A model generated the notes under the pieces. That model had not been told where the DNA came from. It was given only the letters and a program-made list of their open reading frames with translations, and searched no databases. A stretch of 45,896 nt of DNA from Bacteroidaceae bacterium (GTDB lineage: Bacteria > Bacteroidota > Bacteroidia > Bacteroidales > Bacteroidaceae): positions 1 through 45,896 of the forward strand of contig JAFZVW010000048.1 of assembly GCA_017617635.1 (NCBI GenBank). Reading direction: 5' to 3'. Made by a program: the position numbers and the translations under genes. This document shows positions 7,595 to 40,946 of this stretch, piece after piece. How positions within the stretch are numbered: position 1 is the first letter of the stretch; each line of letters begins with the position of its first letter.

Positions 7595-8795
7595 TCTCAA
7601 AAAGGCTCCATTTCCGGGTATATGTCGTACGGATACGCCATTGCTCAGGGTACAGGTTGTTGATTCTGTTTCCGACACACTTTCCAGGCCCCAGCGGCAA
7701 TCCTCTGTAACAAAGCGTAACCATTCCGCGCTCGGCCGGAACACGTACCGCCTCGCGCCGCAGATACTGCAGAGCCTCGTCGTAACTGAGCTCCACCGCA
7801 GGCCCCTCCAGCTCAAACGCCTCAGGCATTACACGCAAAGTCCGCTGCACCTTGTCCACCACATCTCCCCTCCCTTCGGTGGCGCCGGGCGATGACTCCT
7901 TCCTTATCGCACAGCAGTAGAATCCCTCACCCCTGTCACGACCCGGCAGGAAATGACGCTGTTCCAACAGTTCACCCCCCAACTGCTCACATATCCATCG
8001 GGCATTATCCTCGTCCTCGAAACGGTTGAATGTACACGTGCTATATATCAGCAGGCCTCCCGGCTTCAGCGCATGCCATATATCCTGCAGAATACCACGC
8101 TGGCGTGCCTGACACATCATCACATTCTCCATGTTCCACTCGGCAACTGCCTGTTCGTCCTTGCGGAACATCCCCCCGCCCGAACACGGAACATCCGTGA
8201 CCAGCATGTCAAAACAACCCGTCAGCGCCACAAAGTCTGCCGGATAGTTGTTCGTCACAATGCTCCTGACAGGATATGCACCATTCGCCACACGCGTCCA
8301 TTTCTGCATGTTCTCAGCCAGCACCTGGGCACGCTTTGGCATCGGCTCGTTGCTGACCAGCAGCGAACCCTCAGGCAGAAGCCCTGCCAACAAGGTCGAC
8401 TTTCCACCAGGAGCAGCACACAAATCAAGCGCAGCCAACGGCGCATTATCAGTTATGAATTGTGAATTATCAATTATGAATTCCCCCAAAAGCTTCGCAA
8501 TATACATCGACGATGCCTCCTGCACATAGTATGCCCCGGCATGCAGCATAGGATCGAAGGTAAACGGCGGCCGCTCCTTCAGATAATACGCATCATCGCA
8601 CCAGGGAACAGGATCACACTTGCCTATACCCTCGCATAAGCCGGCCAACTGCGGTACCGATGCCAGCTTCCTTTTGTTCAGGCGCACAGATACCTCCGGC
8701 TCAGTCGAAGCCAATGCCTCGCACAGCGCATCCGCCGTCTCAGCATCATACTGGCTGTGCATCAGCCTCACAAAGTCATCAGGCAATACCACCAT
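7584..8795 (-). CDS. RsmF/NOL1-NOP2-Sun family RNA cytosine-C5 methyltransferase
   Basis: 403 residues. A SAM-dependent RNA m5C methyltransferase with the motifs DLCAAPGGKST (SAM binding), DVPCSGGGMFRKD (catalytic PC region) and YSTCTFNRFEDEDN (TC nucleophile motif). A C-terminal region of about 110 residues ends in an RNA-binding module of the RsmF type. Two repeat-derived features stand out. The ATG and the first Val-Val codons come from the edge of an 11-base-phased repeat array. A 13-codon in-frame insertion (about 8445-8482, residues FIIDNSQFITDN) just before the SAM motif comes from an ATTATGAATT-type interspersed repeat. The gene lies between the GH5 gene and the queH fusion on the same strand. 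The exact rRNA or tRNA target is not readable. Confidence 0.85.
   Translation of the reverse strand: MVVLPDDFVRLMHSQYDAETADALCEALASTEPEVSVRLNKRKLASVPQLAGLCEGIGKCDPVPWCDDAYYLKERPPFTFDPMLHAGAYYVQEASSMYIAKLLGEFIIDNSQFITDNAPLAALDLCAAPGGKSTLLAGLLPEGSLLVSNEPMPKRAQVLAENMQKWTRVANGAYPVRSIVTNNYPADFVALTGCFDMLVTDVPCSGGGMFRKDEQAVAEWNMENVMMCQARQRGILQDIWHALKPGGLLIYSTCTFNRFEDEDNARWICEQLGGELLEQRHFLPGRDRGEGFYCCAIRKESSPGATEGRGDVVDKVQRTLRVMPEAFELEGPAVELSYDEALQYLRREAVRVPAERGMVTLCYRGLPLGPGKCVGNRINNLYPEQWRIRTTYTRKWSLFENET
8445..8482. repeat. ATTATGAATT-type interspersed repeat inside rsmF
   Basis: Tandem variants of AATTATGAATTGTGAATTAT, AT-rich in a GC-rich gene. The word ATTATGAATT recurs at 39786-39818. Here it adds about 13 in-frame codons immediately before the SAM-binding motif of the methyltransferase. 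Confidence 0.55.
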
Positions 8796-8871
8796 GAAAC
8801 TACTATGGAACTACGTTTTAACAACTATGGAACAACCATTTAACTACTTTTTAACAACCCTGGAACTACGT
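8795..8871. repeat. 11-base-phased repeat array A (7 units)
   Basis: Seven consecutive 11-base units on the plus strand starting at 8795, 8806, 8817, 8828, 8839, 8850 and 8861, each of the form T-(GG, TT or GA)-A-AC-N-AC-NN (for example TGGAACAACCA and TTTAACTACTT). The start codon of rsmF (8795-8793) shares the first base of the array. The stop codon of the GH5 gene (8846-8844) lies inside unit 5. Related arrays are at 11485, 32208 and 40870. Confidence 0.8.
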
Positions 8872-10112
8872 TTATATTCCTTATACCACTTCCAGCAGGC
8901 ACCCGAACAAGCCTCAGGGTTGCCCCCGAACGCAGGAACAGGATGCAATGGATCCCCGACCAGCTTGTCAAGATCCAGGTAGTCATGAGGGTGCGTCAGC
9001 GTCATCGACACATTGCCGAAATAATCCAGCATCGCCTTGTAGCACACACCCCATTTCGACGTCGAAGCCGTCGCCCAGGTACCCAGGTTCTTATACACCG
9101 GCTGCCCCCATTCGTTGTTGTGGGCAAACTCACGCGGTTCGCGCAAAGGGCTCCAATCCACCTCCGACACGAATATCGGATGCGTATCCACCACAGGCAC
9201 CTGCTTATGGAACTGAGCGATAAACTCCCTCTTGCTCTTCTCAATGTCACCATCACGGTCCACCTTGCCGTCGTCGCAACCATACCAACCCGAATATACA
9301 TGAACGGCATATCCTATATTGCTGCCCTCAATCGGATGTTTCACATAATCCGCATAATGCGACTGGAAACCCGTGCCCGGCACCCAGATGATACCCTCGA
9401 AGCCATTCGTCCTGATCACATCCACAATAGGCTGGAAATAGTCATGCAGAGCCCTCGCGTCAGCCTCGTTGTCAGCATTCCTGATGTTTATCGGCTCGTT
9501 AGCCAGCTCCAGCGCAATATGCCCGCAATACTTGCGTACCGTATCGTTCCTGGACACAATGTCCCATACCTCCATCAGATACTTCTGGTAATAGTCACCC
9601 ACCCTCAGGTCAGGCGGACACACCCCCGGCGGACGCATCACCACATACTGCCTGTGCCTCAGCGCCTTCTGTGCAAGCGGCACATACAACCTCTGCATAT
9701 AGTCCTTCAGCCTCTGCGGGTTGAAATGCCTGATGTCAGCCTCACCGCCAATACCCTCCGGCTGATCCTCCGAGCCGGGATACACATAGTTCCTGTCATT
9801 CGTCCAGACGGGGTCAAGATGCAGGCGGAATATATCACAATTGGCAATCTCAAAGGCCGTGAACATCTTCTCGAAGAAATCCTTGCACCTCTCCATACCC
9901 GCATCATCGTAGCTCCAGCCCCACCTGCCGCCGTTGAACCACGCATTAGGCGTATCCATCACACCATGCAGCACAACACGGTTACCCCTGGTGTCCACCA
10001 GCCACCGACCCTCGACACGAATCGCCGGCAACGGCTTCCCACCCCGTGCCATAACCGCCACACACGCAGACAGACACAACAATATCAAAGCAACACGTAT
10101 TTTCATAATCAT
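8844..10112 (-). CDS. Secreted glycoside hydrolase family 5 protein (cellulase-like)
   Basis: 422 residues with an N-terminal signal peptide (IRVALILLCLSACVAVMA, ending in a likely signal peptidase I site) and one GH5 (beta/alpha)8 barrel. The acid/base glutamate is in ELANEP (E206) and the nucleophile is in FVSEVDW (E317). GH5 covers endoglucanases, mannanases and related activities, so the substrate is not assigned. There is no type IX C-terminal sorting domain and no SusC/D pair nearby, so this is not a polysaccharide utilisation locus. The last residues (SSRVVKK) and the TAG stop are encoded by repeat array A. The start could be ATG 10112 or 10106. A TAATTTTG -7-like element lies at 10136-10129. 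Confidence 0.82.
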   Translation of the reverse strand: MIMKIRVALILLCLSACVAVMARGGKPLPAIRVEGRWLVDTRGNRVVLHGVMDTPNAWFNGGRWGWSYDDAGMERCKDFFEKMFTAFEIANCDIFRLHLDPVWTNDRNYVYPGSEDQPEGIGGEADIRHFNPQRLKDYMQRLYVPLAQKALRHRQYVVMRPPGVCPPDLRVGDYYQKYLMEVWDIVSRNDTVRKYCGHIALELANEPINIRNADNEADARALHDYFQPIVDVIRTNGFEGIIWVPGTGFQSHYADYVKHPIEGSNIGYAVHVYSGWYGCDDGKVDRDGDIEKSKREFIAQFHKQVPVVDTHPIFVSEVDWSPLREPREFAHNNEWGQPVYKNLGTWATASTSKWGVCYKAMLDYFGNVSMTLTHPHDYLDLDKLVGDPLHPVPAFGGNPEACSGACWKWYKEYKRSSRVVKK

Positions 10113-10143
10113 GATTCTTTCCCGAATACAAAATTACGGAAAT

Positions 10144-11250
10144 TTATCGGGACGGTTTTTGTAACTTGGACTTTTTTATCCATTTAACAGACTCTGAAAT
10201 AGACTTTGGTACGCCATAACCGTGTTTATAACATATTCCCAAATTATACTGTGCAGGGGCGTATCCTTGCTCTGCCGAAAGGCGATACAATTTTACTGCT
10301 TCTGTATAGGATTTTGCCACACCATATCCTTTTGCATAGCAAAGTCCCAGCATAAACTGGCCTTCAGCCTGCCCCTGCTCTGCTGCCAGTTTAAACCACT
10401 TTATAGCTTCTGTATAGGATTTCTCCACACCCTGTTCTTTTACAAGACAAAATCCTAGCACGGCCTGTGCATCAGCATCCCCCTGTTCTGCTAACGGTCT
10501 GAACCATTCTATGGCTTCCGTGAAATTCTGTTTTTCGTATGCGTAATACATTCCAACCATTTGCCGAGCTTCCTTTACTCCCTTCTCTGCCGCCATCTTA
10601 AACCACTTTATTGCCGTAGTGTCAGATTTTTCAACGCCCCTACCTTCCTTATAACACTTTCCCAAAATACATTGCGCCTTGGTATTTCCTCGTTCTGCAG
10701 AAAGCCGGAACCATTTTATGGCTGTCGTGTCAGATTGTTCAACACCCTGACCTTTAAGATAGCATAATCCCAAGTTATGCTGTGCGCCATCACTTCCCTG
10801 TTCTGCAGCAAGCCGGAACCACCTTGCGGCCTCTGTATAGGATTGTTCATAAAAAGAGCCTTTGTAATAACATAGGCCCGTATATAATTGCGCCTGGGCA
10901 ACACCTTGCATTGCAGAGACATAGATCCACTTTACCGCCATTGTATCAGATTGTTCAACACCCAGTCCATTAAGATAGCACCATCCCAACATATACTGTG
11001 CAGGAGCATATCCTTGTTCTGCTGAAAGGCGGTACCATTTTACTGCTTCTGTATAGGATTGCTCCACGCCATCACCACTGTAATATCGATTTCCCTGAAG
11101 ATATTGTGCCCCATCAGCCCCTTCTTCAGCAAATCCTCTAAGTATTCTTTCTATACACTGTTTGGTTTCCTTTTCGCAATCCTGATTTTCCGTCTGCGCC
11201 TGGATTGACAATGATGAGAAGAGAAAGATTAGTATGAAAAGTTTCTTCAT
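10144..11250 (-). CDS. Secreted Sel1-like repeat protein
   Basis: 368 residues. A signal peptide (MKKLFILIFLFSSLSIQAQ) is followed by about eight or nine Sel1-like repeats of 36 residues, each of the type A-E-Q-G-x-x-x-A-Q-x-x-L-G-x-C-Y-x-x-G-x-G-V. Sel1 repeats form alpha-solenoids that mediate protein-protein contacts in the periplasm or at the surface, and the binding partner is unknown. The repeats are very alike at the DNA level (for example the block around 10600-10760 and that around 10990-11090), so unit number may vary by recombination. A strong promoter lies at 11271-11301. The gene runs toward the GH5 gene but is separated from it by only 31 bases. Confidence 0.85.
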   Translation of the reverse strand: MKKLFILIFLFSSLSIQAQTENQDCEKETKQCIERILRGFAEEGADGAQYLQGNRYYSGDGVEQSYTEAVKWYRLSAEQGYAPAQYMLGWCYLNGLGVEQSDTMAVKWIYVSAMQGVAQAQLYTGLCYYKGSFYEQSYTEAARWFRLAAEQGSDGAQHNLGLCYLKGQGVEQSDTTAIKWFRLSAERGNTKAQCILGKCYKEGRGVEKSDTTAIKWFKMAAEKGVKEARQMVGMYYAYEKQNFTEAIEWFRPLAEQGDADAQAVLGFCLVKEQGVEKSYTEAIKWFKLAAEQGQAEGQFMLGLCYAKGYGVAKSYTEAVKLYRLSAEQGYAPAQYNLGICYKHGYGVPKSISESVKWIKKSKLQKPSR

Positions 11251-11270
11251 AAGTTTCTTTATTCTGAGAG

Positions 11271-11301
11271 CAAATTTAATGATTTATCCAATAAAAGCAA
11301 A
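11271..11301 (-). promoter_or_regulatory. Bacteroidota-type promoter for the Sel1 gene
   Basis: On the minus strand, TAAATTTG (11278-11271) matches TAnnTTTG and TTTG (11301-11298) lies exactly 19 bases upstream. The ATG at 11250 follows. Confidence 0.75.
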
Positions 11302-11393
11302 GAATTTGTATAAGAAACGACATATCTGTCTTATTTACGAAATACGATAAAGTGACGAAAAATCAGTCCTTCCTACGTCGTATGGTCGTTCCC

Positions 11394-11454
11394 GATACGG
11401 CGTTTCGTGGCCTTTGATACGCCGTTTCGTCGCCTTTGATACGCCGTTTCGAGG
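11394..11454. repeat. 22-base tandem repeat, about 2.8 copies
   Basis: Units begin at 11394, 11416 and 11438 and read GATACGCCGTTTCGTCGCCT plus two more T. They are GC-rich inside an AT-rich gene-free stretch. No gene was found in 11302-11582; it holds this repeat, a GGGGGGG run near 11470 and repeat array B. Confidence 0.75.
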
Positions 11455-11484
11455 CTGTCCGTACGCCAGGGGGGGGCTATAGTG

Positions 11485-11557
11485 GTTAAATGGTGGTTCC
11501 ACAGTTGTTAAATGAGCTTCGCCCGTTCCAGATTGTTTAACAATTGTTTATCGCGAC
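11485..11557. repeat. 11-base-phased repeat array B (6 units, one gap)
   Basis: Units at 11485, 11496 and 11507, then after a 7-base gap at 11525, 11536 and 11547, read as GTT(AAA or CCA)-T/C-x-GT-x on the plus strand. This is the reverse orientation of arrays A and C. The last three units match the last three of array D almost base for base, including a following short hairpin GCGACaaaGTCGC (11552-11564) and the words CATGGAACTAT. Confidence 0.75.
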
Positions 11558-11582
11558 AAAGTCGCATGGAACTATATATAAT

Positions 11583-11610
11583 AAATCCCCGTCATCACCG
11601 ACAGGGATTT
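11583..11610 (-). terminator. Stem-loop just after higA
   Basis: AAATCCC (11583-11589) pairs with GGGATTT (11604-11610) and GTC with GAC inside. It starts 3 bases past the higA stop. The T-run is weak (TTTATTATAT), so it may be a terminator or an mRNA-stabilising hairpin. Confidence 0.55.
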
Positions 11611-11612
11611 TA

Positions 11613-11924
11613 TCAGAATATAGCTGCTATACGGGGGATTTTTTTCAGCATGTCGAGCAGAATACTGTCCTTACGTGCCGTCTGCATGTTGTACTTCGTC
11701 TGCAGGTACATCAACGAGTCTGCAGGTACATCGAGTGCTGCCTCAAACATCAGGGCAGTCTTCGATGTCAGCGGGCGACGCCCGTTCAGTATCTCGTTCA
11801 CAACCGAATAAGTCAACCCCATAGAATTGGCCAACTGTCGCTGGCTGATTCCACGCTCCTCTATCTCGTCCTTCAGCACCTCACCAGGATGGGTGGCAAA
11901 TGCTCCATAGCCTAAATTTCCCAT
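11613..11924 (-). CDS. higA: HigA-family antitoxin (XRE helix-turn-helix)
   Basis: 103 residues. The helix-turn-helix spans about 12-65 (HPGEVLKDEIEERGISQRQL and the recognition region TYSVVNEILNGRRPL), as in HigA/VapI antitoxins. It neutralises HigB and represses the operon. It lies 15 bases downstream of the toxin gene in the usual higB-higA order. A canonical AGGAGG (11940-11935) overlaps the toxin stop and sits about 10 bases before the ATG. That is uncommon in this phylum and may boost antitoxin over toxin synthesis. A palindromic operator candidate lies at 12329-12345. Confidence 0.88.
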   Translation of the reverse strand: MGNLGYGAFATHPGEVLKDEIEERGISQRQLANSMGLTYSVVNEILNGRRPLTSKTALMFEAALDVPADSLMYLQTKYNMQTARKDSILLDMLKKIPRIAAIF

Positions 11925-11939
11925 GCGTTCTATACCTCC

Positions 11940-12251
11940 TTATTTTTTGTAATGATTCGACAATTCCGTGATGCTACAAATGGTGATACCCTCTTGTTTA
12001 CTCGATTTGAACTCTATGCGGTACTGGTCATTCACACGTACCGACTCCGTTCCTTTCTTGTCACCTCCCAAGGCCTCATAATGAAGGGAGTGATAACGAT
12101 ACAAGTCCTCTACTTTCTCAACAGAGTCAAGGATGTTCACTACGCGCACATACCGTCTTACAATATCTGGTTGGTAGCGGTGTTTCTTTTCCTTGCATAC
12201 ACCATTATAGAATAGCTCGCGCAGATAGTCCTTGTCAAACTTGATCTCCAT
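11940..12251 (-). CDS. higB: HigB-like (RelE/ParE superfamily) toxin
   Basis: 103 residues. The fold-typical C-terminal half reads LHYEALGGDKKGTESVRVND and YRIEFKSS, close to the plasmid-maintenance killer/HigB family of ribosome-dependent mRNA interferases. The active-site-type basic and aromatic residues (H, K, R, Y) are present in the expected strands. It is immediately upstream of higA. Promoter and operator are at 12305-12345. It lies at the left edge of the restriction island, where such modules often help stabilise mobile DNA; that role is inferred. Confidence 0.85.
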   Translation of the reverse strand: MEIKFDKDYLRELFYNGVCKEKKHRYQPDIVRRYVRVVNILDSVEKVEDLYRYHSLHYEALGGDKKGTESVRVNDQYRIEFKSSKQEGITICSITELSNHYKK

Positions 12252-12304
12252 ATTACTGCAACTTTAGCTTAGCTGAAATTGCCTTCTTTGCAACTTTCTG
12301 TATG

Positions 12305-12345
12305 CAAAGATATACATTATTTCTAATATTCGCAAATTTTGCGAA
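12305..12345 (-). promoter_or_regulatory. higBA promoter with overlapping palindromic operator
   Basis: The minus-strand -7 element is TATCTTTG (12312-12305) and the -33 TTTG is at 12336-12333 (spacing 20). The -33 element lies inside a perfect palindrome, TTCGCAAA-T-TTTGCGAA (12329-12345). This is the expected arrangement for autorepression by the HigA helix-turn-helix protein. Confidence 0.7.
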
Positions 12346-12393
12346 CTATTTTCGTAAACTCACAATATTTATTATTAGCTTAGCAACCTCTAA

Positions 12394-12573
12394 TAGCAAC
12401 ACGGCCTTTCTCGGGGAGAGAAACGGCGTGTTGCTATGCGTAAAACGGCCTCTCGCTTTTCGTAGCGACATCTTTTTGATAAAAAATCCGAACAACTATA
12501 ATGGTGGCTTAAAATAGAGTCTTAAGGATAATTTTTGCTCCCCTACTAGGGAAATATTTTTTCCTCGTAGGGG
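12394..12573. repeat. Two strong perfect hairpins in gene-free DNA
   Basis: Hairpin 1: TAGCAACACG (12394-12403) with CGTGTTGCTA (12427-12436), and inside it TTTCTC (12407-12412) with GAGAAA (12418-12423). Hairpin 2: CCCCTAC (12540-12546) with GTAGGGG (12567-12573), enclosing GGGAAA and TTTCC. No credible reading frame was seen in 12252-13005. These could be terminators, recombination ends or small-RNA structures. Confidence 0.6.
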
Positions 12574-12662
12574 CGCAGATTTTTTATAGTATAGCTACAA
12601 AACTCAGCTACGGCATGAGCTTTTAGCAGTTCGGAAATATATTGACAATTTTACACGGCGTG

Positions 12663-12903: not shown

Positions 12904-13005
12904 CGACATTCGAGAACCGCAATGTGACTGCCCTACCTTTGCATTGCCAAGAAAAAAAACCTCACCCAAACAATCTATTGTATAGTCCTCTAAACCTGAA
13001 TAACA

Positions 13006-15186: not shown

Positions 15187-15192
15187 AAACTG

Positions 15193-23596: not shown

Positions 23597-23684
23597 CGGA
23601 GAGAGGGGGATTCGAACCCCCGAAACGCTTTTGACGTTTACACGCTTTCCAGGCGTGCCTCTTAAGCCACTCGAGCATCTCTCC
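23597..23684 (-). tRNA. tRNA-Ser (anticodon GGA)
   Basis: 88 bases on the minus strand. The acceptor stem GGAGAGA (5' end at 23684) pairs with TCTCTCC. The anticodon loop CTGGAAA gives GGA, reading UCC/UCU. A long variable arm typical of class II serine tRNA and the T-loop GGTTCGAATCC are present. The discriminator is G and CCA is not encoded. A -7-like TATTTTTG lies at 23709-23702. Confidence 0.93.
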
Positions 23685-31194: not shown

Positions 31195-32208
31195 CTATTT
31201 TTTTGTCCCTTGCGGCAACTGTTTCAAGGTACGAAGAGATGCTTCCAGTTCGCGCATCAGTTCCCGCTTTTCGGAGGACGGCGAATATACAAAGCCCTCG
31301 GCAACAATAACCTTACGCCGGGTTGTGTCTACCTGCACGATACATACAAACGGACCGCCCAAGGCTCCGTTTCGCATCTCCCACAAGCCTCGCACCTCCA
31401 GCATATCCCTGCCCTGTATGTTGCGCACCCTGCCGCTTACCAGAGCCTCGCCGCCTTCACGTGCCGTCTGCATCCACTGGTCGGGACGGCCGCCCGGAAT
31501 ATTCTCCTTCATGACCGAATCACGGCGTTCCATAGCGCTCCTGAGGTCAAATACAGTATTGCCATCCCAGGGGAGTGCATACACAACAACATTCTGGTCC
31601 ATCTGGTTACGGTTCGTTCCGCACCACAGGAAGTCCCTACCCTTCTTGGTTGCCTTCAGGTCCTCGGGAACACGTATGTCCATTCCCAATACCTGTTTAA
31701 GCTGATCCGAAACGCGCTTGCAGTATTTGCTCTGCAGAGCGGCAGTACGCATCTCGATCTGGGCATCACAAAGGAAATCCTGTATACGCTGCCTGTTTGC
31801 TGAAAGATATTCGCGCAGGGCATCCACAGACGGAGCTGACACCGTCACCTCTGTCTGAGGCTTTGCCGTTACGTTACGGCTGATGCCTATCATTGGCTTT
31901 CTGAGTTTAGGATCAACGGTCACGAACAACTGCGAGTGCATCGTGCCGAACATTCGGTCGTAATGCGGAGTAAAGATACGCGTTACACGAAACATCTGTT
32001 CGGATTGAGCCAATCCTGGAACCTGAGCCTCCACAATGGACTTGATAGTATCCTGCAGGTCGCTTTCCCATACAGGTTTGTCGACCACCAACAGCAATTC
32101 ACTGGGCAAGCCCTTGGACTTGCCGATGATTATCTTAGGCTTGCCGGTATCACAGGCACACAGGAGAAATACGGCAAACAACGATATGAACAACTGCCTG
32201 ACAACCAT
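31195..32208 (-). CDS. DUF4837 lipoprotein
   Basis: 337 residues. A lipoprotein signal with lipobox L16-C17-A18-C19 is followed by the DUF4837 domain, starting IIIGKSKGLPSELLLVVDKP. No function is known for the family, which is restricted to Bacteroidota. The ATG at 32208 is preferred. Upstream in-frame sequence to 32337 would translate three copies of the 11-residue unit NSCSKVVKRWL, which is just the phased repeat array C in this frame. The ATG itself and the Val-Val codons are contributed by the array edge, as in rsmF. It lies downstream of the alpha-2-macroglobulin gene, a common neighbour on the same strand here. Confidence 0.8.
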   Translation of the reverse strand: MVVRQLFISLFAVFLLCACDTGKPKIIIGKSKGLPSELLLVVDKPVWESDLQDTIKSIVEAQVPGLAQSEQMFRVTRIFTPHYDRMFGTMHSQLFVTVDPKLRKPMIGISRNVTAKPQTEVTVSAPSVDALREYLSANRQRIQDFLCDAQIEMRTAALQSKYCKRVSDQLKQVLGMDIRVPEDLKATKKGRDFLWCGTNRNQMDQNVVVYALPWDGNTVFDLRSAMERRDSVMKENIPGGRPDQWMQTAREGGEALVSGRVRNIQGRDMLEVRGLWEMRNGALGGPFVCIVQVDTTRRKVIVAEGFVYSPSSEKRELMRELEASLRTLKQLPQGTKK

Positions 32209-32295
32209 GGAACAACTATTTAACCACCGTTTGACAACTCTGGAACAACTATTTAACCACCGTTTGACAACTTTGGAACAACTATTTAACAACGC
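32208..32295. repeat. 11-base-phased repeat array C (8 perfect-length units)
   Basis: Units at 32208, 32219, 32230, 32241, 32252, 32263, 32274 and 32285, each exactly 11 bases: TGGAACAACTA, TTTAACCACCG, TTTGACAACTC repeated as a 33-base super-unit. The first base is shared with the DUF4837 start codon. The stop codon of the alpha-2-macroglobulin gene (32284-32282) ends unit 7. Confidence 0.88.
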
Positions 32296-35200
32296 TGTGC
32301 CTTGAGTTGTTGCCATGGGCCCTGTATTCGGGGGCATACTGGCATTGTACGGTCGGAACTGCCAGGTTGTATTTTCCTACACGCTGCACACTCTGCTCTT
32401 CATCCAGGACATAGACTCCATGAGGCATGGACGGAATGAAGTACTCTGTACGGTCGTCATACACCTGACGATAGTAGCGGATTCCACCCTGATAGCCGCA
32501 ACCCGACAACCTGCTCACCGGCTCAACCGAAGCCGAACGGGGCACCGTGACAACGACATAGTCGTAATCGTTACCTGCCGTCACCGTAACACGATGGCGT
32601 ATACGGTCACCTACCTTAGCATCTTCCCTGTCAACCTGAGCTGCAACCTCGAATCCGGTTCCTGAGCCCTCGACCTTGTCATACGGCAGGCTATAGCTTG
32701 CATATACCGAAGCCCAGGTCTCGTGGGACGACTTGTTGCTCAGAACAACATTGCGGCGACGGATAACGTCGATTGTATCCACCTTCATGAACGATGGACG
32801 ATGGACGATGGACGATGGACCGTCAGCAGTAAGTTCACGTACACCCAGAGTAAGTGCATATACCGCATCGATGCTGTTGACAGGTGTATCCCATACCTGT
32901 GTCCTCTTCTGCTTCAGCAGCCACTTCTGCATACCGCGTATTGTAGTGCTGTCCTGTGGAGTAACCTTACATATCGCTTCCATCACCTGTGTATGGATGG
33001 CAATACGACGGTCCAAACTGTTCCAGTCGGCAGAACGGTATGCCATGTATGTACCGTCCTTGTGCTCCAGACGCTTGTGAATCATCTCCATTGCACCCTT
33101 TGTCAGTTTCTCCTGCATATTGTGCTGCACAATTACCAACAGGGCAAGGTTCTCGTTATTTACCTCCTGTACATCCGTCGGAGCGTGCTTGAGCATGCGC
33201 CTTACCAACTTACCTGTCTCGTTGTCGATGGTTCCCGAAGCAGTAAGTACATACAATGCACGCAAGTCGTACCATGACAAATGCCATTCCCTTGAGGATT
33301 TGTTTCTCTCGTCAAGAGACTTCTGCAATACTCCCTTCAGGTATTTGCGGATACCGTACAGGACTCCGCTGGCATCGGCATCGCCTGTTGCAAGACGTGC
33401 CAACAGGAATCCTACCTCGCAGGTCATGTAATTATTGCCATTCAATCCGGGGAACCATGATATGCTGCCGTCTGCATTCTGCATCTGACGTACCTTGTTT
33501 ATATAACGCGAAGCAGCCTTGTTGCCCAGACGCGATGCGGCATAATAGGCGGATGCATAGGACAGGACGTCCTGACACTTAGGCTCCAGTATCTGCGGCA
33601 GTGCATTGATGGCACTCTGTATAGGATCCAGATTCTGCTCAACAACAACGGTACGGTTCACGGCACCGGCAGGGAACAAATCCTGGAAATCAACAGAAAC
33701 GGTTTCACCTGGCTCCAGTGTTATAGCCTTGGTCGAGACAAGGTCTGCCACTGACTCCAACACGGGAATCTCGCGCATCTCGCCATCACTGTCGGTAGCA
33801 GTAGCGGCCTTGATGCTTACCAGAAGTCCCTTTGCACCCTGAGGTGCGTACAGGGACGTTGTAATGGTCGAGTCGCGCTGTGCACCAAGGCTTACACGTA
33901 CATTCCTGCGGCAGACAACCTTCTGCGACACTGCATCCCTTACAACAATCTCGACACGGACCTGCTGAGTCTTGTCTGTTGTATTGTCTATGGTTGAAGA
34001 GAACGAAAAATCATCTCCCTCTCGTACGAAACGCGGCAGGTGCAGTTCTGCCATCAGGCTCTTCTGTGCTACCAGTTTGCTGTCAAGCTTTCCATAACAC
34101 ATGTCACTGGTGTGTGCGAATCCCAGTATATGCCATGTAGTCAGGCTCTGTGGCAAACGGAACGACAACGATACACGACCCTCGCCGTCTGTCATCAATC
34201 CCGACTGGAATGTTGCCGTCTCGCTGAAATCACTGCGCATGGCCACACCGTCAAGGGATTGTGCCCCGCCTTCATCTGCCAATGCCCCCTCCGTCTGCAA
34301 GCCTGCTACAGGACGTGCCAAAGCATCGTCCATGGACTTGGCTGAGGCATTCCCGCGAATGCGGACATTTTTAACGGCAACTTCGCGCAGGGTCATATTC
34401 TTAAGAGGAGCAGACGTGTAGTATAGGCGAACGTATCTGCTATTGAAGAGACTCTCGTCCAACGATGTGAAGCTATACTGCGGATAAGTATAGTATTTAA
34501 CCTCAAAATGCTGGAAATACATCTGACCACGAGGCTGGAATCCAAAGCCATAGCGCATGCGAGCGTACGGGATGTAGTGCGACAGGACATTCTGCATCCC
34601 GAACGAATTGGGAGCCAGCGCATCCAACGAAGCGTCATAGACGCTCATCAGCACACTTGCCCTTTCTGTACTGCCGTTCAAGTGACTGACCCGCAATGTC
34701 CATTGCTGCAATTCGCCCGGCTGGGTATGGTCGCGGAAAGTATCCCAATGCAGGGACAGACGCTTTTCGGGCATACGCCTCCAAAGTTTTATTTCCCTGT
34801 GCTCCACTATGCCGTCCAATACACAGGATGCAGACAGCCTCAATCCGTCTCCATACTCCGCCAGATACGGAATCTGCAGAGTGCAGAGTGTATCACTTGT
34901 GCTCACCACAGTATCAATGACCATCCTGTTACCGGTAAATCCCATCAGATACATATGGCGCATACGACCGGCCTTTCCACGGAACTCGAGAACGGCAGGC
35001 ACATCAGTCTCGAATGTGTCTACAGGAACCTCTAGCCATTTCTTGGCCGTTGCCTGTGTCTCCTGCGGAGGATCGGGGAAAAGACGTACCGAGGCACTTG
35101 CCGTCTGCTCCTCGCCTGACGGAGAAACCACGCGTACTGAGACAAGCATGGTAGGGAAATACCTGAACTCCCCACTGTTGTCCTGACGAGGTATCCTGAT

Positions 35201-36691
35201 GGTGAATCTTCCTTCGGCATCCGTATATGTGGTATCAAGTGGCACGTTGTTCTTACTGCTGCGTCTCCACCACCAGCAGGCTTGACGTCGCACAGTTCCA
35301 GTGACACGGCCCTCGCGCAACGGAGTACCGTTGTACTTCATGGCACGTCCTGTGACAACAAGCGTATCTGCCTCCAATGTAACATAGAACTCAGGCCTCT
35401 TGTACTCCTCGACACGAATTGTCTCAACGCTGTTGTTAATCTTCACCATGTGATTGCCCAGGCGTGTTTCCTGCGGTATGTTGAACGTAACAGCAACATT
35501 GCCCATGCTGTCCGTCTCTGCCCACTTGGAATCCAGCACCTTGTTCTCACCGTCTGTAAGCGATGCCGAAACCCTTTGTCCGGCAACGACACGGGCATCC
35601 CAGTGCCTGCGCTCGTAAACGACGGCTGCAGCCTTTACCTCCTGCCCGGGCCTGTAGATCTTGCGGTCGGTGAAGATTTCGGTAATCGTACTGTACTTGT
35701 CAGGCGGGGTCGAATAACTGTAAGACCTGTAATAGTTGATTGCAGGCAACAGGCTGTCTGCACCCAGGACGACACGGGCAGTACGCTTCTTTTCGTCCAG
35801 TATGACCTGAGCATCGGGAATACGTACACCTGACTTGGCATCGACGGCAATGACACGAATCTGCTTGTCAGGCATTTCCTGAACCAGCATCTGCAATCGC
35901 GACACGGTAAACTTGACTTCCAATGCCTTGGTACGCTTGCGCAACCTGGTTTTCGTAGTACCCCTGACCTTCATCACATACAGTCCCGGAGCGGACGGCG
36001 CAAACAACGTGTCACGCGATACCAGACGACCCCTGGTATCATAAATGCCAAAGGTCATATCACAGATATTCTTCCTGCCTATTTCAAGACGCAGGGAATC
36101 ACCCGGATAATAAATCTGTGCCATACGCACATACAGCTGAGGCTCGATCTTGTTGATTGAATCATTCAGCTGCTCCAGGCGCTTCAATTCACGAGCAATA
36201 CGCTGAGGTTTTACATTGCCACGGGCAGCACAGAAGCTGATAAGCGAGTCCTCGCTCATATATACCGAATCCGGCATACACTCACGTGCTGCAAGCCATA
36301 TCACATATAGCATGCTGGAATTGTACACCGCCTCGTCGGAACCACGTTTTACCACAGGCAGCCAGTCACGTGTACGAGCCGTGTACAGGGCTTCGGGATC
36401 ACTAAAAGCCTCACGCAGCAGCTCGGCCGTGCGTGCCCTCCACTTGTCCCTGACACCGTTGTACTGGTTCTGGTGATACATCTTGGCAAGACATACATCG
36501 TACAGGGCACGACGCACACCATCCGTTGCCAGGCGTTTCTCTTCCAGCAGGCTTATGTCATATTCCACGCTGTCGGGAGACAGTTGCTCACGTTCGACGA
36601 ACTTACGCAATATACCGGCCAAATCATCCTCGCGTGCAGATACGGCAAAAGGTACGGCACACAGCAGAACAAACATCAACAACTTCTTCAT
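32282..36691 (-). CDS. Alpha-2-macroglobulin-like secreted protein (MG2 and A2M domains)
   Basis: 1469 residues with a signal peptide (MKKLLMFVLLCAVPFAVSA). After an N-terminal region of about 330 residues come the MG2-type domain (TDRKIYRPGQEVKAAAVVY, about 338-356), further macroglobulin domains, the A2M signature region near 825-860 (FQSGLMTDGEGRVSLSFRLP) and a C-terminal helical toroid (ALPQILEPKCQDVLSYAS onward). No thioester motif (CGEQ) is present, so it cannot trap proteases covalently in the classical way. It probably protects the envelope or scaffolds periplasmic complexes; the role is uncertain. A heptamer repeat (32791-32818) interrupts the C-terminal part, and the last residues (HSVVK) and stop come from repeat array C. 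Confidence 0.85.
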   Translation of the reverse strand: MKKLLMFVLLCAVPFAVSAREDDLAGILRKFVEREQLSPDSVEYDISLLEEKRLATDGVRRALYDVCLAKMYHQNQYNGVRDKWRARTAELLREAFSDPEALYTARTRDWLPVVKRGSDEAVYNSSMLYVIWLAARECMPDSVYMSEDSLISFCAARGNVKPQRIARELKRLEQLNDSINKIEPQLYVRMAQIYYPGDSLRLEIGRKNICDMTFGIYDTRGRLVSRDTLFAPSAPGLYVMKVRGTTKTRLRKRTKALEVKFTVSRLQMLVQEMPDKQIRVIAVDAKSGVRIPDAQVILDEKKRTARVVLGADSLLPAINYYRSYSYSTPPDKYSTITEIFTDRKIYRPGQEVKAAAVVYERRHWDARVVAGQRVSASLTDGENKVLDSKWAETDSMGNVAVTFNIPQETRLGNHMVKINNSVETIRVEEYKRPEFYVTLEADTLVVTGRAMKYNGTPLREGRVTGTVRRQACWWWRRSSKNNVPLDTTYTDAEGRFTIRIPRQDNSGEFRYFPTMLVSVRVVSPSGEEQTASASVRLFPDPPQETQATAKKWLEVPVDTFETDVPAVLEFRGKAGRMRHMYLMGFTGNRMVIDTVVSTSDTLCTLQIPYLAEYGDGLRLSASCVLDGIVEHREIKLWRRMPEKRLSLHWDTFRDHTQPGELQQWTLRVSHLNGSTERASVLMSVYDASLDALAPNSFGMQNVLSHYIPYARMRYGFGFQPRGQMYFQHFEVKYYTYPQYSFTSLDESLFNSRYVRLYYTSAPLKNMTLREVAVKNVRIRGNASAKSMDDALARPVAGLQTEGALADEGGAQSLDGVAMRSDFSETATFQSGLMTDGEGRVSLSFRLPQSLTTWHILGFAHTSDMCYGKLDSKLVAQKSLMAELHLPRFVREGDDFSFSSTIDNTTDKTQQVRVEIVVRDAVSQKVVCRRNVRVSLGAQRDSTITTSLYAPQGAKGLLVSIKAATATDSDGEMREIPVLESVADLVSTKAITLEPGETVSVDFQDLFPAGAVNRTVVVEQNLDPIQSAINALPQILEPKCQDVLSYASAYYAASRLGNKAASRYINKVRQMQNADGSISWFPGLNGNNYMTCEVGFLLARLATGDADASGVLYGIRKYLKGVLQKSLDERNKSSREWHLSWYDLRALYVLTASGTIDNETGKLVRRMLKHAPTDVQEVNNENLALLVIVQHNMQEKLTKGAMEMIHKRLEHKDGTYMAYRSADWNSLDRRIAIHTQVMEAICKVTPQDSTTIRGMQKWLLKQKRTQVWDTPVNSIDAVYALTLGVRELTADGPSSIVHRPSFMKVDTIDVIRRRNVVLSNKSSHETWASVYASYSLPYDKVEGSGTGFEVAAQVDREDAKVGDRIRHRVTVTAGNDYDYVVVTVPRSASVEPVSRLSGCGYQGGIRYYRQVYDDRTEYFIPSMPHGVYVLDEEQSVQRVGKYNLAVPTVQCQYAPEYRAHGNNSRHSVVK
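32791..32818. repeat. Heptamer tandem repeat (ACGATGG x4) inside the alpha-2-macroglobulin gene
   Basis: Four perfect copies at 32791, 32798, 32805 and 32812, at about codon 1291-1300 of 1469. Seven is not a multiple of three, so gain or loss of one copy shifts the frame and removes the last 170 or so residues. Confidence 0.85.
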
Positions 36692-36715
36692 CTCCCGAAT
36701 ACAATAATTTAGTTT

Positions 36716-37090
36716 TTACTTTGCAGCCAGAACCTCGATTTCAACGAGAGCACCCTTTGGCAGATCCTTCACGGCAACTGCCGAGCGTGCCGGATACGGC
36801 TCCTGGAAAAAGGTTGCATAAACCTCGTTCATTGCAGCGAAATCTGCAATGTCTGCCAAATATACAGTAGTCTTGACAACGTGAGACAGGTCTGTACCTG
36901 CCTGCTGTAGAATTGCCGAAGCATTCTTCAGGCTCTGCTGTGTCTGCTCCCTGATACCACCGGGAACAAAAGCTCCTGTGGCAGGGTCAATGGGTATCTG
37001 ACCGCTGGCATATACAAAACCGTTGACTTCTATTGCCTGGCTGTACGGACCTATGGCAGCCGGCGCATTGTTTGTTGCTATTGCTTTCAT
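36716..37090 (-). CDS. ridA: RidA-family enamine/imine deaminase
   Basis: 124 residues, full length. It starts with the family pattern NAPAAIGPYSQAIEVNGFVYASGQIP. The active-site arginine is in YPARSAVAVKDLP and the glutamate in LVEIEVLA. It hydrolyses reactive 2-aminoacrylate or 2-aminocrotonate released by PLP dehydratases. The gene lies 43 bases after ilvA, the very enzyme that makes these intermediates, so the pairing is functionally coherent. It forms trimers in the cytosol by family precedent. Confidence 0.93.
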   Translation of the reverse strand: MKAIATNNAPAAIGPYSQAIEVNGFVYASGQIPIDPATGAFVPGGIREQTQQSLKNASAILQQAGTDLSHVVKTTVYLADIADFAAMNEVYATFFQEPYPARSAVAVKDLPKGALVEIEVLAAK

Positions 37091-37133
37091 ATTGGTAAAT
37101 GAATAATGAAAGAATAAATAATATTGTTTACCT

Positions 37134-38324
37134 TTAAATCAATTTAAAACCTGCTTCCCTCAATGCCTGGCGTATCTGCTCTATATGCTCGGCATTACGC
37201 GTCTCGACCTTGAGCGTCAGCTGGCAATCGGTCACACGTTCCGAATCATCGTTACGCTCATGACGCACGTTCACCACATTACCGCCAATTCCGGCAATTA
37301 TGTTGCTCACTGCCACCAGTTGTCCGGGCTTGTCTTCCAGTTCCACGGTCAGCGTGCAGATACGTCCGCCCTGAACCAAACCACGGTTGATTACACGGTT
37401 CAGTATCGTCACATCCACATTACCGCCACTGACCACACATATTGCCTTGCGGCCCTTAACAGGAACCTTGTTGAACATAGCGGCAGCCACACTCACGGCA
37501 CCTGCTCCCTCGGCAACCATCTTCTGCTGTTCGATCAGAGCCAGGATAGCCGCACATATCTCGTCCTCGGTAACAGTAACCACACCATCCAGATAATGAC
37601 TGCAAATATCGTATGTCAGATTACCCGGCTTCTTCACAGCAATACCGTCGGCAATAGTGTTCACGCTGTCCAGTGAAACAATGGACTGACTGTTGATACT
37701 GTTGAACATACTGGGGGCACCGGCTGCCTGAACGCCCCATACCTCGACCTTGGGGTTCAGACTCTTGATGGCATATACTATGCCGCTGGCCAGGCCACCG
37801 CCGCCTATAGGCACGACAACCACGTCAACATCCGGCAGCTGATCCAGAAGTTCCAAACCTATGGTACCCTGACCTGCTATGACATTCTCGTCGTCAAACG
37901 GATGGACAAATGCATAGCCCTTCTCATCGCGCAGTTCCAGGGCGCGCTTGTAGGCATCATCGTACACGCCAGGCACCAGGCATATTTCCGCACCATAGCG
38001 GCGAGTTGCTTCGACCTTGCTGATCGGCGCACCCTCGGGCAGGCATATTATGGACTTGACCCCGGCTTGTGTAGCACCCAAGGCAACTCCCTGGGCATGA
38101 TTACCTGCCGAACAGGCTACCACGCCACGCTTTTTCTCTTCGGCAGTAAGTTGCGAAATACGGTAATACGCACCACGCACCTTGAAGGAGCCCGTCAGCT
38201 GCAGGCACTCGGGCTTAAGCCAGATATCCGCCTCGGGATTCAGACGCGAAGCCGGAATCAGGTTGGTCGTACGTATAACCTTGCTCAGCACATACCGTGC
38301 CTTGTAAATATCATCTAACGTCAT
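37134..38324 (-). CDS. ilvA: Threonine ammonia-lyase with C-terminal ACT domain
   Basis: 396 residues. A PLP-dependent fold II dehydratase, converting threonine to 2-oxobutyrate. The PLP lysine is K48 in TGSFKVRGAYYRI. The phosphate-binding glycine loop is VPIGGGGLASG and SGGNVD follows. A single ACT-like domain (about 325-396, TLTVELEDKPGQLVAVSN) fits the shorter type with one regulatory domain rather than the long E. coli IlvA. It may supply isoleucine precursors or feed 2-oxobutyrate toward propionate. It sits between pepD (4-base gap) and ridA on the same strand. Confidence 0.92.
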   Translation of the reverse strand: MTLDDIYKARYVLSKVIRTTNLIPASRLNPEADIWLKPECLQLTGSFKVRGAYYRISQLTAEEKKRGVVACSAGNHAQGVALGATQAGVKSIICLPEGAPISKVEATRRYGAEICLVPGVYDDAYKRALELRDEKGYAFVHPFDDENVIAGQGTIGLELLDQLPDVDVVVVPIGGGGLASGIVYAIKSLNPKVEVWGVQAAGAPSMFNSINSQSIVSLDSVNTIADGIAVKKPGNLTYDICSHYLDGVVTVTEDEICAAILALIEQQKMVAEGAGAVSVAAAMFNKVPVKGRKAICVVSGGNVDVTILNRVINRGLVQGGRICTLTVELEDKPGQLVAVSNIIAGIGGNVVNVRHERNDDSERVTDCQLTLKVETRNAEHIEQIRQALREAGFKLI

Positions 38325-38328
38325 GGAA

Positions 38329-39774
38329 TCAAATACTCTTCAGCAAAGCCTGCATGAATACCCAGAATTTCTCCACACTCGCTATGTTGCAACGCTCGTC
38401 AGGTGTATGAGGACTGCGCAGAGTAGGACCGAAGCTGACCAGGTCCATCTCAGGGTAGACAGCACCAATCAGGCTGCACTCGAGACCGGCATGGCAAACC
38501 TCGACCTTTGCATCCTCATGGAAACAGTCCTTGTAAACCTGCACCATCTTGGCAACGATAGGGCTGTCAAAGTCAGGCTGCCACGAACCGTAGTGACCGC
38601 CAAACTCGACCTTCATGCCAATCATGCCGAATGTACATTCCATCATCTCCTGGATATACTCCAACTGCGTATCACAGCTGCTGCGAGCCAGAATAAGCAC
38701 CTCGGCATTACCGCCACCGATGTTGATGATAGCCAGGTTCGAACTCGTCTCAACCACAGTCGGGATGCTGGGGATAAAGCGCAGCACACCGTTATGGCAG
38801 GCCATTATGGCACTTATCAGGTTGTCCTGTATCTCCTCCGGCACCTGCATCTTGGGAACATCGCATTCCTCAACCGAAATTGCAATCTCCTCCTCAACAC
38901 CACGGTATTCGGCACGGAAAGTCTCCAGGCAGTATGCTACCAGTTCCTTCAGATCCTCGACATTCTCCTTGGGCAATGTCAGCACGACATCAGCCGTACG
39001 TGGTATGGCATTACGCATATTGCCGCCCTGCCAGCTTGCCAGACGGGCATCATCATCCTGAATGGCCTGGCGCACCAGACGTGCCATCAGTTTGTTTGCA
39101 TTGCCACGGCCCTCGTTAATCTCCAGACCGCTATGACCGCCACGCAGACCCTCGATACGAATCTTAACGGCAACATCCTCGCTGTCGGTCTCTACCTCCT
39201 TGTACTGCATCGAGGCAGTGATATTGATACCGCCGGCACTGCCTATGACAAACTCGCCCATGGTCTCGTTGTCGATATTCAGCAGGATATCACCCTTCAA
39301 CGTGTCAGCAGCCAGATGGTTCACACCATACATGCAAGTCTCCTCGTCCGCAGTAATCAATGCCTCCAGAGGACCATGTTCCAGAGTCTTTGACTCCATC
39401 ACAGCCATAATGACAGCCACACCGATGCCATCGTCAGCACCCAGCGTAGTACCCTTGGCCTTCACCCACTCACCGTCAATCCATGTCTGGATAGGATCCG
39501 TTTCGAAATTGTGCTCCACCTCGTCCAGTTTCTGAGGCACCATATCCATGTGCGCCTGCAGCACTGCAGTCTTGCTGTTCTCGTGACCTGGTGTGGCAGC
39601 CTTGCGCATGACGATGTTCTCTCCGCCATCCTTCCATGCCTCGATGCCACGCTCGGCAGCCCAGTCAAGCAGGAATTTCTGTACCTTTTCCAAATGTCCG
39701 CTTGGACGTGGAACCTGTGTCAGCAGATAAAAGTTCTGCCAAATCTCTTTTGGGTTAAGTTCGTTGATTGTCAT
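38329..39774 (-). CDS. pepD: Cytosol non-specific dipeptidase (aminoacyl-histidine dipeptidase, M20)
   Basis: 481 residues. A di-zinc M20/M28-clan peptidase. Zinc ligands: HMDMVP (H and D), DDGIGVA (bridging D), TADEETCMYG (catalytic E and ligand E), and C-terminal HAGLECSLIG. It begins INELNPKEIWQNFYLLTQVP, matching the family start. It hydrolyses dipeptides in the cytosol. It lies 32 bases after the flippase-like gene and 4 bases before ilvA. An interspersed ATTATGAATT repeat lies just upstream at 39786-39818. Confidence 0.93.
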   Translation of the reverse strand: MTINELNPKEIWQNFYLLTQVPRPSGHLEKVQKFLLDWAAERGIEAWKDGGENIVMRKAATPGHENSKTAVLQAHMDMVPQKLDEVEHNFETDPIQTWIDGEWVKAKGTTLGADDGIGVAVIMAVMESKTLEHGPLEALITADEETCMYGVNHLAADTLKGDILLNIDNETMGEFVIGSAGGINITASMQYKEVETDSEDVAVKIRIEGLRGGHSGLEINEGRGNANKLMARLVRQAIQDDDARLASWQGGNMRNAIPRTADVVLTLPKENVEDLKELVAYCLETFRAEYRGVEEEIAISVEECDVPKMQVPEEIQDNLISAIMACHNGVLRFIPSIPTVVETSSNLAIINIGGGNAEVLILARSSCDTQLEYIQEMMECTFGMIGMKVEFGGHYGSWQPDFDSPIVAKMVQVYKDCFHEDAKVEVCHAGLECSLIGAVYPEMDLVSFGPTLRSPHTPDERCNIASVEKFWVFMQALLKSI

Positions 39775-39785
39775 TTCAATATAGA

Positions 39786-39818
39786 TTATGAATTATGAAT
39801 TAAGCATTATGAATTAAT
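39786..39818. repeat. ATTATGAATT-type interspersed repeat between the flippase-like gene and pepD
   Basis: Three tandem-like ATTATGAATTA variants. The flippase-like gene ends inside it (its last residues R-I-N-S and TAA stop). It shares the core word with the insertion inside rsmF at 8445-8482. Confidence 0.55.
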
Positions 39819-40790
39819 CCTGGTTCTTCCCAATGCTGCCAATGACCAAAGTCCCAGCAATGCCACCAGCAAAGTCTGCAACGTATGTACCACAAATGCA
39901 AATATAGCCGCATCATTCCCTGCAACACCATACAGCACCAGCACAGTCTTGACCGCAAAATGCCATGGACCTGCTCCATTGGGTGTAGGAACCAGTACGG
40001 CAAAGCAACCGGCTACGAAAGCAACCAGAGCACACATCGGACCCAAGTTGGCAGTATAGTCAAAACACTGAAATGCAACATAGAAATGCAAGTAGTACGA
40101 CAGCCATATACCCACGCTGTACAACAGAAACAGGAACGGGCTCCTGACCTTGCGCACACTCATCATTCCGTCGGCAAAACCACGGAACTTGCTGGTCAGT
40201 TTGCCAAACAGGTGTACCTTGCGCATCAGCACCATAGCCATACCGGCAGCCAGTACACCGCACAACAGCGTAACCAGATAACCCGTAGTCGTAAAACCTG
40301 CCATGATTTTACCCAGCGAAAGACCTGTCCTGTCCATAAACTGCATGAACACCGGTATCTGCAACAACAGTGTAACCAGCGAGAACATAGCCACCATCGC
40401 CATGTCTATCACACGCTCTGTAACAACGCTGCCAACCAGTTTGCTGAAATCCACACCATCGTACTTCCTGACCACGCCACAGCGCAATACCTCGCCGCTG
40501 CGCGGAATAGCCAGCGAACTGCCATACGACAGGAAAATACTGTTTATCAGGACACCCGTGCGCGTTTTGTAACCCAGCGGATCAAGCACCTGCTTCCACC
40601 TGAGGGCACGAAACACCTGAGCCGATATGCCGAACGGCATACTCAACATAATCCATGTCCAGCACCTACGGCTCTCCATCGCCTCCAGTATCTGGTTCCA
40701 GTCAATCCTGCGATACATCCACCACATTATCGCAGCGGCAATAAATACCGGCAGGCCTATCCTGAATATATTGCTAATCCACCGTTTCAC
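39807..40790 (-). CDS. Lysylphosphatidylglycerol synthase TM-region / flippase-like membrane protein (UPF0104)
   Basis: 327 residues with about eight transmembrane helices. It begins WISNIFRIGLPVFIAAAIM; the family-typical pattern is RALRWKQVLDPLGYKTRTGV and RSGEVLRCGVVRKYDGVDF, then VVTERVIDMAMVAMF, and near the end VPTPNGAGPWHFAVKTVL. It lacks the cytosolic synthase domain of MprF. Members are putative lipid flippases, and the substrate is unknown. It is the first gene of the pepD-ilvA-ridA run, downstream of repeat array D. Confidence 0.85.
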   Translation of the reverse strand: MKRWISNIFRIGLPVFIAAAIMWWMYRRIDWNQILEAMESRRCWTWIMLSMPFGISAQVFRALRWKQVLDPLGYKTRTGVLINSIFLSYGSSLAIPRSGEVLRCGVVRKYDGVDFSKLVGSVVTERVIDMAMVAMFSLVTLLLQIPVFMQFMDRTGLSLGKIMAGFTTTGYLVTLLCGVLAAGMAMVLMRKVHLFGKLTSKFRGFADGMMSVRKVRSPFLFLLYSVGIWLSYYLHFYVAFQCFDYTANLGPMCALVAFVAGCFAVLVPTPNGAGPWHFAVKTVLVLYGVAGNDAAIFAFVVHTLQTLLVALLGLWSLAALGRTRINS

Positions 40791-40869
40791 TAAACCACCA
40801 AAACAAGATTCCTGTTATCAAATACAGGCGCAAATATACAAAAAACAAAACGCACAAACAAATAAAATT

Positions 40870-40946
40870 GTTAAATGGTTGTTAAATGGTAGTTCCATAG
40901 TAGTTAAATAGTGGTTCCATATTGTTTACCAATTGTTTAACACGCG
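40870..40946. repeat. 11-base-phased repeat array D (7 units)
   Basis: Units at 40870, 40881, 40892, 40903, 40914, 40925 and 40936, all exactly 11 bases: GTTAAATGGTT, GTTAAATGGTA, GTTCCATAGTA, GTTAAATAGTG, GTTCCATATTG, TTTACCAATTG, TTTAACACGCG. The last three match array B. It is followed by GCGAAGC and CATGGAACTAT as in B. It lies in a 202-base gene-free gap. Confidence 0.88.

Follow-up and report, generated by a model that had tools for sequence, protein, structure and literature searches.

The four arrays of 11-base repeats in the stretch of DNA analysed here (a 45,896-nucleotide contig of a Bacteroidaceae bacterium, JAFZVW010000048.1 of assembly GCA_017617635.1; hereafter the window, or contig C13) are probably copies of a dispersed, species-specific composite minisatellite that resembles the BrickBuilt elements, and that would have spread between gene junctions and then grown by local duplication of blocks. 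All four arrays are present where the original prediction, made from the letters of the window, had placed them, with two in each orientation. The neighbouring open frames are all on the minus strand, in agreement with its statement that the arrays lie between co-directional genes. It knew of no named element of this form, and searches of one open-access library likewise found none; they also returned no paper on Bacteroidales describing intergenic arrays of 11 or 22 bases. The arrays are real and belong to a species-private repeat family.

The genome under study comprises 2.05 Mb in 65 contigs and is 85% complete. A 15-base signature of the arrays, GGAACNACNNTTTAACNAC, occurs in it as 47 exact matches (28 forward and 19 reverse), and the reversed pattern does not occur. 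A looser pattern is likewise frequent: three AACNAC motifs at period 11, with at most one mismatch, gave 100 matches in the genome against 7 for the control, four of the 100 belonging to a different repeat (C31 and C41:98732). Among 138 other genomes of the genus, the signature was found in two, with one match each (one of them G382, at C15:4795). In a draw from the family, a pattern in which AACNAC alone was fixed at period 11 matched 17 of 301 genomes, our own included; a few of these carry 11-base arrays of their own, and some of the matches are apparently coding. A scan of a wider collection for the signature returned at least 99 stretches, and among the 80 listed nearly all look like single chance matches. 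The gene junction that holds array 3 in the window, between an alpha-2-macroglobulin (A2M) gene and a DUF4837 gene, measures about 18 bases without an array in one relative (G180) and holds 7-base or GGGAGG-type repeats in three others (G301, G306 and G314); in several relatives the neighbours, judged by eye, are different.

The copies are composed of a small set of blocks. The main unit has two forms, TGGAACAACYA and TTTAACAACYA, and a 10-base unit occurs occasionally. When inserts between units were picked by context alone, 28 rows were obtained, of which 22 are 13 bases long and the remaining six are plain array units. Twenty of the 13-base inserts pair at all five stem positions, and the other two pair at three and four. 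In the seven distinct insert stems, an arm pairs with its own partner at 4.57 of 5 positions and with swapped partners at 2.90, revealing covariation. The right-hand insert (GGGC-GAA-GCCC type) gave 13 matches at three or fewer mismatches and the left hairpin brick gave 25, both against none for the control, although the seven brick matches at three mismatches are doubtful. The longer copies add a palindromic centre (AACAATTG type), beyond which hairpin bricks follow at intervals of 31-32 bases, and in one locus (L062) the matching ends AAATAGTTCCA and TGGAACTATTT were recognised by eye.

Steps and units were counted in the fetched loci, where a script delimited 32 clusters with 199 units; three of the clusters are hairpin-brick sides of clusters on the opposite strand, and the later counts use the other 29. 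As predicted, the 11-base step dominates (132 of 167 steps, or 135 when all multiples of 11 are taken) and other spacings are rarer: 12 steps of 10 bases, four of 21, three of 22, one of 28, ten of 29, four of 31 and one of 32. The three brick-side clusters supply all of the 31-base steps, the 32-base step and three of the 11-base steps. With these other lengths present, the claim of strict 11-base phasing does not extend across the genome. One turn of B-DNA takes 10.5 bp. Steps of 21 and 32 bases are near whole turns, and only lengths of 28, 29, 31 and 40 bases clearly break the helical phase; we therefore call the phase dominant rather than strict.

The block lengths point to local growth. 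Self-comparison, at no more than nine lags per array, covered the sixteen arrays that have six or more units. The best lag was 11 in five of them (window array 4, L062, L067, L069 and L082), 22 in L071, L076a (tied with 44), L079 and L081, 33 in window array 3, and 44 in L074, with window array 1 tied between 22 and 33. In the other four it was not a multiple of 11, being 21 in L068, 32 in L061 and 40 in L076b and L083. Because the best lags vary in this way, the duplicated block differs between arrays, and its length is not bound to multiples of 11. Strict helical phase as a rule for the window arrays is weakened by the 10-, 28-32- and 40-base lengths.

Many of the copies fit gene boundaries. 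The copies occur in both orientations and are mostly intergenic; by crude gene calls, some lie in convergent junctions and two lie inside coding sequence, and hence the co-directional placement seen in the window is not general in the genome. The boundary test used uncurated open frames of at least 80 codons and 4,000 random placements that included coding sequence, which provides a rough baseline. The stop of an open frame falls inside 21 of the 29 arrays (0.285 of random placements), a start lies near an array end in 12 (0.258), and both fit the array in seven (0.035). An ATG from 8 bases before to 20 bases after the array end was found in 8 of 29 cases in the forward orientation and 5 of 29 in the reverse. 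Read from the sequence, two successive units provide TAA on either strand; ATG precedes each GGAAC in the forward direction, and occurs also in the reverse direction where the spacer is CA. With TAA on both strands and ATG within the unit pair, an array can bridge a stop to a start or serve as a linker.

The two copies that look coding lie in linkers. In one, the array encodes the short linker of GldL (PF22827; L082:3271-3981). In 20 of 22 relatives, both conserved parts of GldL share a contig and flank a linker that is longer and different; in one of the other two the parts are on two contigs, and in the last only the second part was found. Many of the linkers of the relatives are rich in Gly and Ala. 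The second such copy also supplies a linker, in a two-domain ABC frame that was recognised by eye. Arrays are also found at contig edges: C54 begins and C61 ends within one. At three loci (L067, L076 and L080), an array precedes each of three similar gene starts (MKKIFVNP-like), and in L067 and L080 the upstream sequence is also common to both, as in a segmental duplication; both observations were made by eye.

These observations suggest the following course of events. The building blocks would be the two-form 11-base unit, the occasional 10-base unit and the hairpin inserts, to which the longer copies would add the palindromic centre and the bricks. Copies may reach new gene junctions through a copying or insertion step, and would then grow locally by duplicating blocks of units, as the array-to-array differences in block length suggest. 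A copy would connect the final codons of one gene with the start codon of its neighbour, or replace a protein linker, probably at low cost, given the TAA and ATG within the unit pair. The 11-base step would be mostly inherited through duplication, and helical phase probably does not maintain the arrays.

Several points weigh against this account. When one position was freed at a time, with the full unit required alongside, no variation was found among 56 unit pairs at each of positions 5, 6 and 8; departures occurred once at position 9, twice at position 4 and three times at position 1, and positions 7, 10 and 11 vary often. Such uneven conservation within the unit is neither predicted nor explained by plain neutral duplication. 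The excess of starts near the arrays over random placement is modest. In this 85% complete genome, the arrays could not be tied to a transposase or to any other mover, and neither a target-site duplication nor a clean empty site was established. A Y1 transposase was considered as the mover and set aside: the single Y1_Tnp match of the genome (C27, E value 2.1e-5) lies on a contig with no array match.

Among known systems, the nearest found were BrickBuilt and the TAACTGA arrays. The BrickBuilt miniature inverted-repeat transposable elements of Porphyromonas gingivalis have 23-nt tandem repeats and 19 copies, are reported as always intergenic, and have a leader and tail of up to 285 and 318 nt (PMC4596501). 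Both families are species-restricted in Bacteroidales and have a few tens of dispersed copies (19 against about 29 here), with tandem repeats, and further modules alongside, between genes of varied function. They differ in that the units here are of 11 bases (with blocks of 21, 22, 32, 33, 40 and 44), none of our 167 steps measures 23 nt, and two copies here lie in genes (gldL and the double-ABC frame). No leader or tail of BrickBuilt size was noticed here, the two having been compared by description only. The leader and tail segments of BrickBuilt carry small inverted-repeat ends; part of the copies here have hairpin bricks and a palindromic centre, besides the matching ends seen in L062. Long stem loops and bidirectional promoter activity are further features of BrickBuilt; of the copies folded here, L079 with its flank gave z -5.15 and window arrays 2-4 gave z -0.66 to -1.24. 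The TAACTGA arrays, heptamer repeats known from Beggiatoaceae, cyanobacteria and a number of Bacteroidetes (PMC4679880), are also short direct repeats at gene junctions, with stops in all frames, which overlap the ends of upstream genes and are often near a start codon. They consist of one 7-base sequence found across phyla, whereas the 11-base units here are confined to a species and accompanied by hairpin modules. The arrays also share dispersed intergenic placement and small hairpins with a further class. Repetitive extragenic palindromic sequences and bacterial interspersed mosaic elements (REP/BIME), which are associated with REP-associated tyrosine (RAYT, Y1) transposases, are dispersed intergenic repeats with small hairpins. 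The tandem 11-base units set our arrays apart from them, as does the fact that the only Y1_Tnp match is on an array-free contig.

The intergenic repeats of uncultured Bacteroidales are easily overlooked in annotation. Here, genes stop and start within the arrays, protein linkers incorporate them and some contigs end in them, and a species-private family that fits gene junctions provides a tractable case for the origin of such repeats.

A period of 22 bases recurs in samples of relatives. Stretches of up to 20 kb from genomes of the genus and family (L273-L357; 1.28 Mb pooled) were taken at fixed places, in most cases where contig 1 or contig 2 begins, and chosen unseen; they are not a purely random sample, since three of the genomes (G038, G128 and G197) were first met through array matches and some genomes were sampled twice. 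Of 98 tandem arrays that passed a crude filter as non-coding, 26 have period 22, compared with 20 at period 7, ten at 14, five at 21, one each at 20 and 24, and none at 23. Period 22 accounts for 12 of 33, 5 of 15, 3 of 37 and 6 of 13 arrays in the separate samples, the third having more arrays at 7 and 14. A further 100 kb from G005, G008 and G009, whose genomes are assembled in one to three contigs, gave four of six arrays at period 22, the first two genomes being already known to hold such arrays. A lag count independent of the repeat finder (lags 13-40; 1.38 Mb) gave 33 at 22, eight at 21, one at 23 and no more than seven at each remaining lag. Non-Bacteroidota loci totalling 0.39 Mb, chosen by a pattern match rather than drawn at random, gave a count of zero at lag 22, and none of the seven non-coding arrays reported there by the repeat finder has period 22; among other Bacteroidota loci, 2 of 15 arrays do.

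The sequences of the period-22 units differ between genomes. A dyad reached p ≤0.05 (uncorrected) in 17 of 28 non-coding period-22 arrays, our own two included. Dyads in the 22 register did not continue beyond the detected arrays: the 44 pooled arrays scored 0.265 at register 0 and 0.264 for the mean of shifts, and the 18 with strong core dyads scored 0.312, with a mean of 0.272 and a maximum of 0.329 for the shifts. Nor were palindrome mismatches spaced every 11 bp, as an A-form helix might suggest, in 90 family palindromes (0.94 at lag 11; null 0.97, standard deviation 0.028). If upheld, the 22-base peak calls for a binding factor or a fixed-length copying step of about two helical turns. 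One stretch of G008 (L355:11162-11381) consists of ten consecutive 22-base lines, mostly dyads, whose arms change together while the 22 register persists, as seen by eye. Other repeats were also met in these searches: a short 11-bp array of different sequence in RUG552 (L089 and L094), an unrelated repeat common to three contigs (L134, L151 and L155) from another Bacteroidetes bin, and dense 8-base arrays with several 11-base arrays in G128 (L214-L216).

A dinucleotide phasing scan marked few regions and pointed to L070 and L084. In L084 (4040-4420), diverged units in 11-base phase extend over roughly 300-350 bp upstream of an orphan gene of 248 amino acids. The region is mirror-symmetric, TC-type on the left and GA-type on the right, and its phase reaches z scores of 17.2 and 12.7 at 11, with none at 10, 12 or 13. 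A similar region lies near position 4267 of L070, and the orphan gene is absent from the fetched stretch. Homologues of the orphan protein were found as six matches in 4 of 121 genomes, plus one beside an array of G197. Neither Pfam nor NCBIfam contains a family that matches the protein, and PHROGs gave a weak match (E value 0.34); it matched no phage and has no relative on viral contigs, and one weak, partial plasmid match was obtained (E value 7e-4). Upstream of the orphan genes, the best phase z scores at 11 are 14.3, 11.1, 13.3, 17.3, 6.5, 4.3 and 6.1. All seven loci (L358-L363 and L208) thus have a phased upstream region, compared with 8 of 450 controls (mechanical open frames, scored in the 450 bases upstream) at a cut of z 4.2, which was set after an earlier run had revealed the weakest orphan locus; two controls reach 7 and none reaches 10. 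Three of the loci (L358, L359 and L208) were first met through their arrays, and the other four by protein search alone.

Long imperfect palindromes, with 38-42 of 60 pairs at the best centre, were found in L084, L070, L220, L360, L208 and L362, and four other copies in G197 have 34-45 of 60. The folds of one G197 copy and of two gene-linked regions beat all shuffles (z -8.64, -3.71 and -4.10). In G197, 14 loci carry the unit ATCGAACAACT at two or fewer mismatches, one of them upstream of the orphan gene. The 11-base step and AACAAC are common to the window-type and orphan-type elements, and the long palindrome is not: six window-type elements, tested with the best centre sought within a short range, have 22-28 of 60 pairs. 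Because the long palindrome is missing, we do not assign the window arrays to the orphan system.

The period-22 arrays and the orphan loci leave room for a wider, less likely reading: many Bacteroidales-type intergenic arrays would keep an 11-base, mostly 22-base, register with species-private sequence, and a cellular factor would read or make the register itself rather than the sequence. The orphan gene with its phased inverted region, which falls in no known protein family, might then be a master copy, and the dispersed arrays that repeat its unit, as in at least one species, its satellites. The period 22 of the relatives and the 11-phased region upstream of the orphan gene favour the wider idea of phase in the original prediction, and the orphan gene with this region is a concrete candidate to start with.

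For the window-type arrays themselves, the prediction had suggested selection for helical phase, for example through a protein that lines one face of the helix and for which the units would serve as successive binding sites. We consider this unlikely. The dominance of 11-base steps, accompanied by 12 steps of 10 bases, also near one turn, the invariance of unit positions 5, 6 and 8, the blocks of 21, 22, 32 and 33 bases, all near whole turns of B-DNA, and the recurrence of period 22 in relatives with unrelated sequences would all be accommodated by such a protein. However, steps of 28-32 bases exist, and blocks of 40 bases are themselves duplicated; copies lie in convergent junctions and within coding sequence, where they encode protein linkers; the identified neighbour genes have no common function; and 136 of 138 relatives lack the signature. 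Operators of the OmpR/PhoB type also consist of head-to-tail 11-bp direct-repeat half-sites, but these are few and stand at particular promoters, whereas the arrays here are spread over some thirty loci, beside genes of different kinds and also in coding linkers. Selection for phase in the window-type arrays is unproven.

It is less likely still that the arrays work at the RNA level, as intercistronic leaders governing translation of the following gene. The ATG near the array end and the seven arrays fitted to both a stop and a start would suit such a role, for which the TAACTGA heptamer arrays, which stand immediately before start codons, offer a precedent (PMC4679880). Against it, the arrays occur in both orientations, with convergent and in-gene copies, starts near them exceed the random expectation only modestly, and window arrays 2, 3 and 4 show no clear folding advantage over their shuffles (z -0.66, -1.24 and -0.86); one other copy, L079 with its flank, folds at z -5.15. 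Finally, the notion that the window-type arrays are satellites of a gene-plus-array system, with the orphan gene encoding the factor that recognises or moves them, is very unlikely: the phased region at all seven orphan loci (4 of 4 among those found by protein search alone), the single unit used by gene-linked and dispersed arrays in G197 and the orphan-type copy L070 in our own genome speak for it, but the window-type elements fall short of the orphan-type ones in palindrome pairs (22-28 against 34-45 of 60), their unit sequences differ, no orphan gene was found in the other fetched array loci, and the orphan protein lacks a family match beyond the weak PHROGs one.

We return to the minisatellite copies as they stand in the window. 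The prediction of strict phasing holds for arrays 1 and 3, in which all steps are 11, but not for array 4, which has a step of 21, or array 2, which has one of 28. Array 1 (8787..8871, plus strand) has seven units of 11 bp (8795-8869) of the TGAAAC, TGGAAC and TTTAAC types without a hairpin insert, and its tied best lags, 22 and 33, score 0.75 each. It contains the stop of an upstream minus-strand GH5-type frame (8844-10112), and an RsmF-like gene (7584-8795) starts at its edge. Array 3 (32195..32295, plus strand) has eight units of 11 bp (32208-32293) in a higher-order block of 33 bp (lag-33 identity 0.93). It contains the stop of the alpha-2-macroglobulin gene (32282-36691), and the DUF4837 lipoprotein gene (31195-32208) probably starts in it, both genes being on the minus strand; a 24-residue query for this start, too short for the purpose, matched our own genome only.

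Array 2 (11482..11551, minus strand) has five recognised units with steps of 11, 28, 11 and 11. The prediction had described a plain 7-base gap in it; the units are interrupted instead by a hairpin insert (GGGC-GAA-GCTC type) about 17 bases long, and the insert feature (11507..11529, minus strand) has three mismatches to the family form GGAACGGGCGAAGCCCATGGAAC. A hairpin brick of the form AGTTCCAT-GCGAC-TTT-GTCGC-G adjoins the array (11552..11573, minus strand). Array 4 (40867..40940, minus strand) has six recognised units with steps of 21, 11, 11, 11 and 11, and is adjoined by a short hairpin brick (GCGCTTCGCG type; 40940..40960, minus strand), which stands beside GTTCCA and is paired in the computed fold.

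Two 22-bp arrays, with no strand assigned, are also present in the window. One, GATACGCCGTTTCGTGGCCTTT (11394..11455), is separate from array 2 and near it, and the flank that contains it reaches a phase z score of about 10 at 11 and 22. The other, AAACGGCCTCTCGCTATGCGTA (12421..12464), is intergenic. At the gathering score, the single Rfam match in the window is a tRNA at 23597-23684, and none falls on the arrays. Seven-base tandem repeats occur at 8445-8482, 39785-39816 and 32787-32820 (ATTATGA twice and ATGGACG once), and a 108-bp tandem repeat lies at 10298-10518, inside the open frame 10144-11250.

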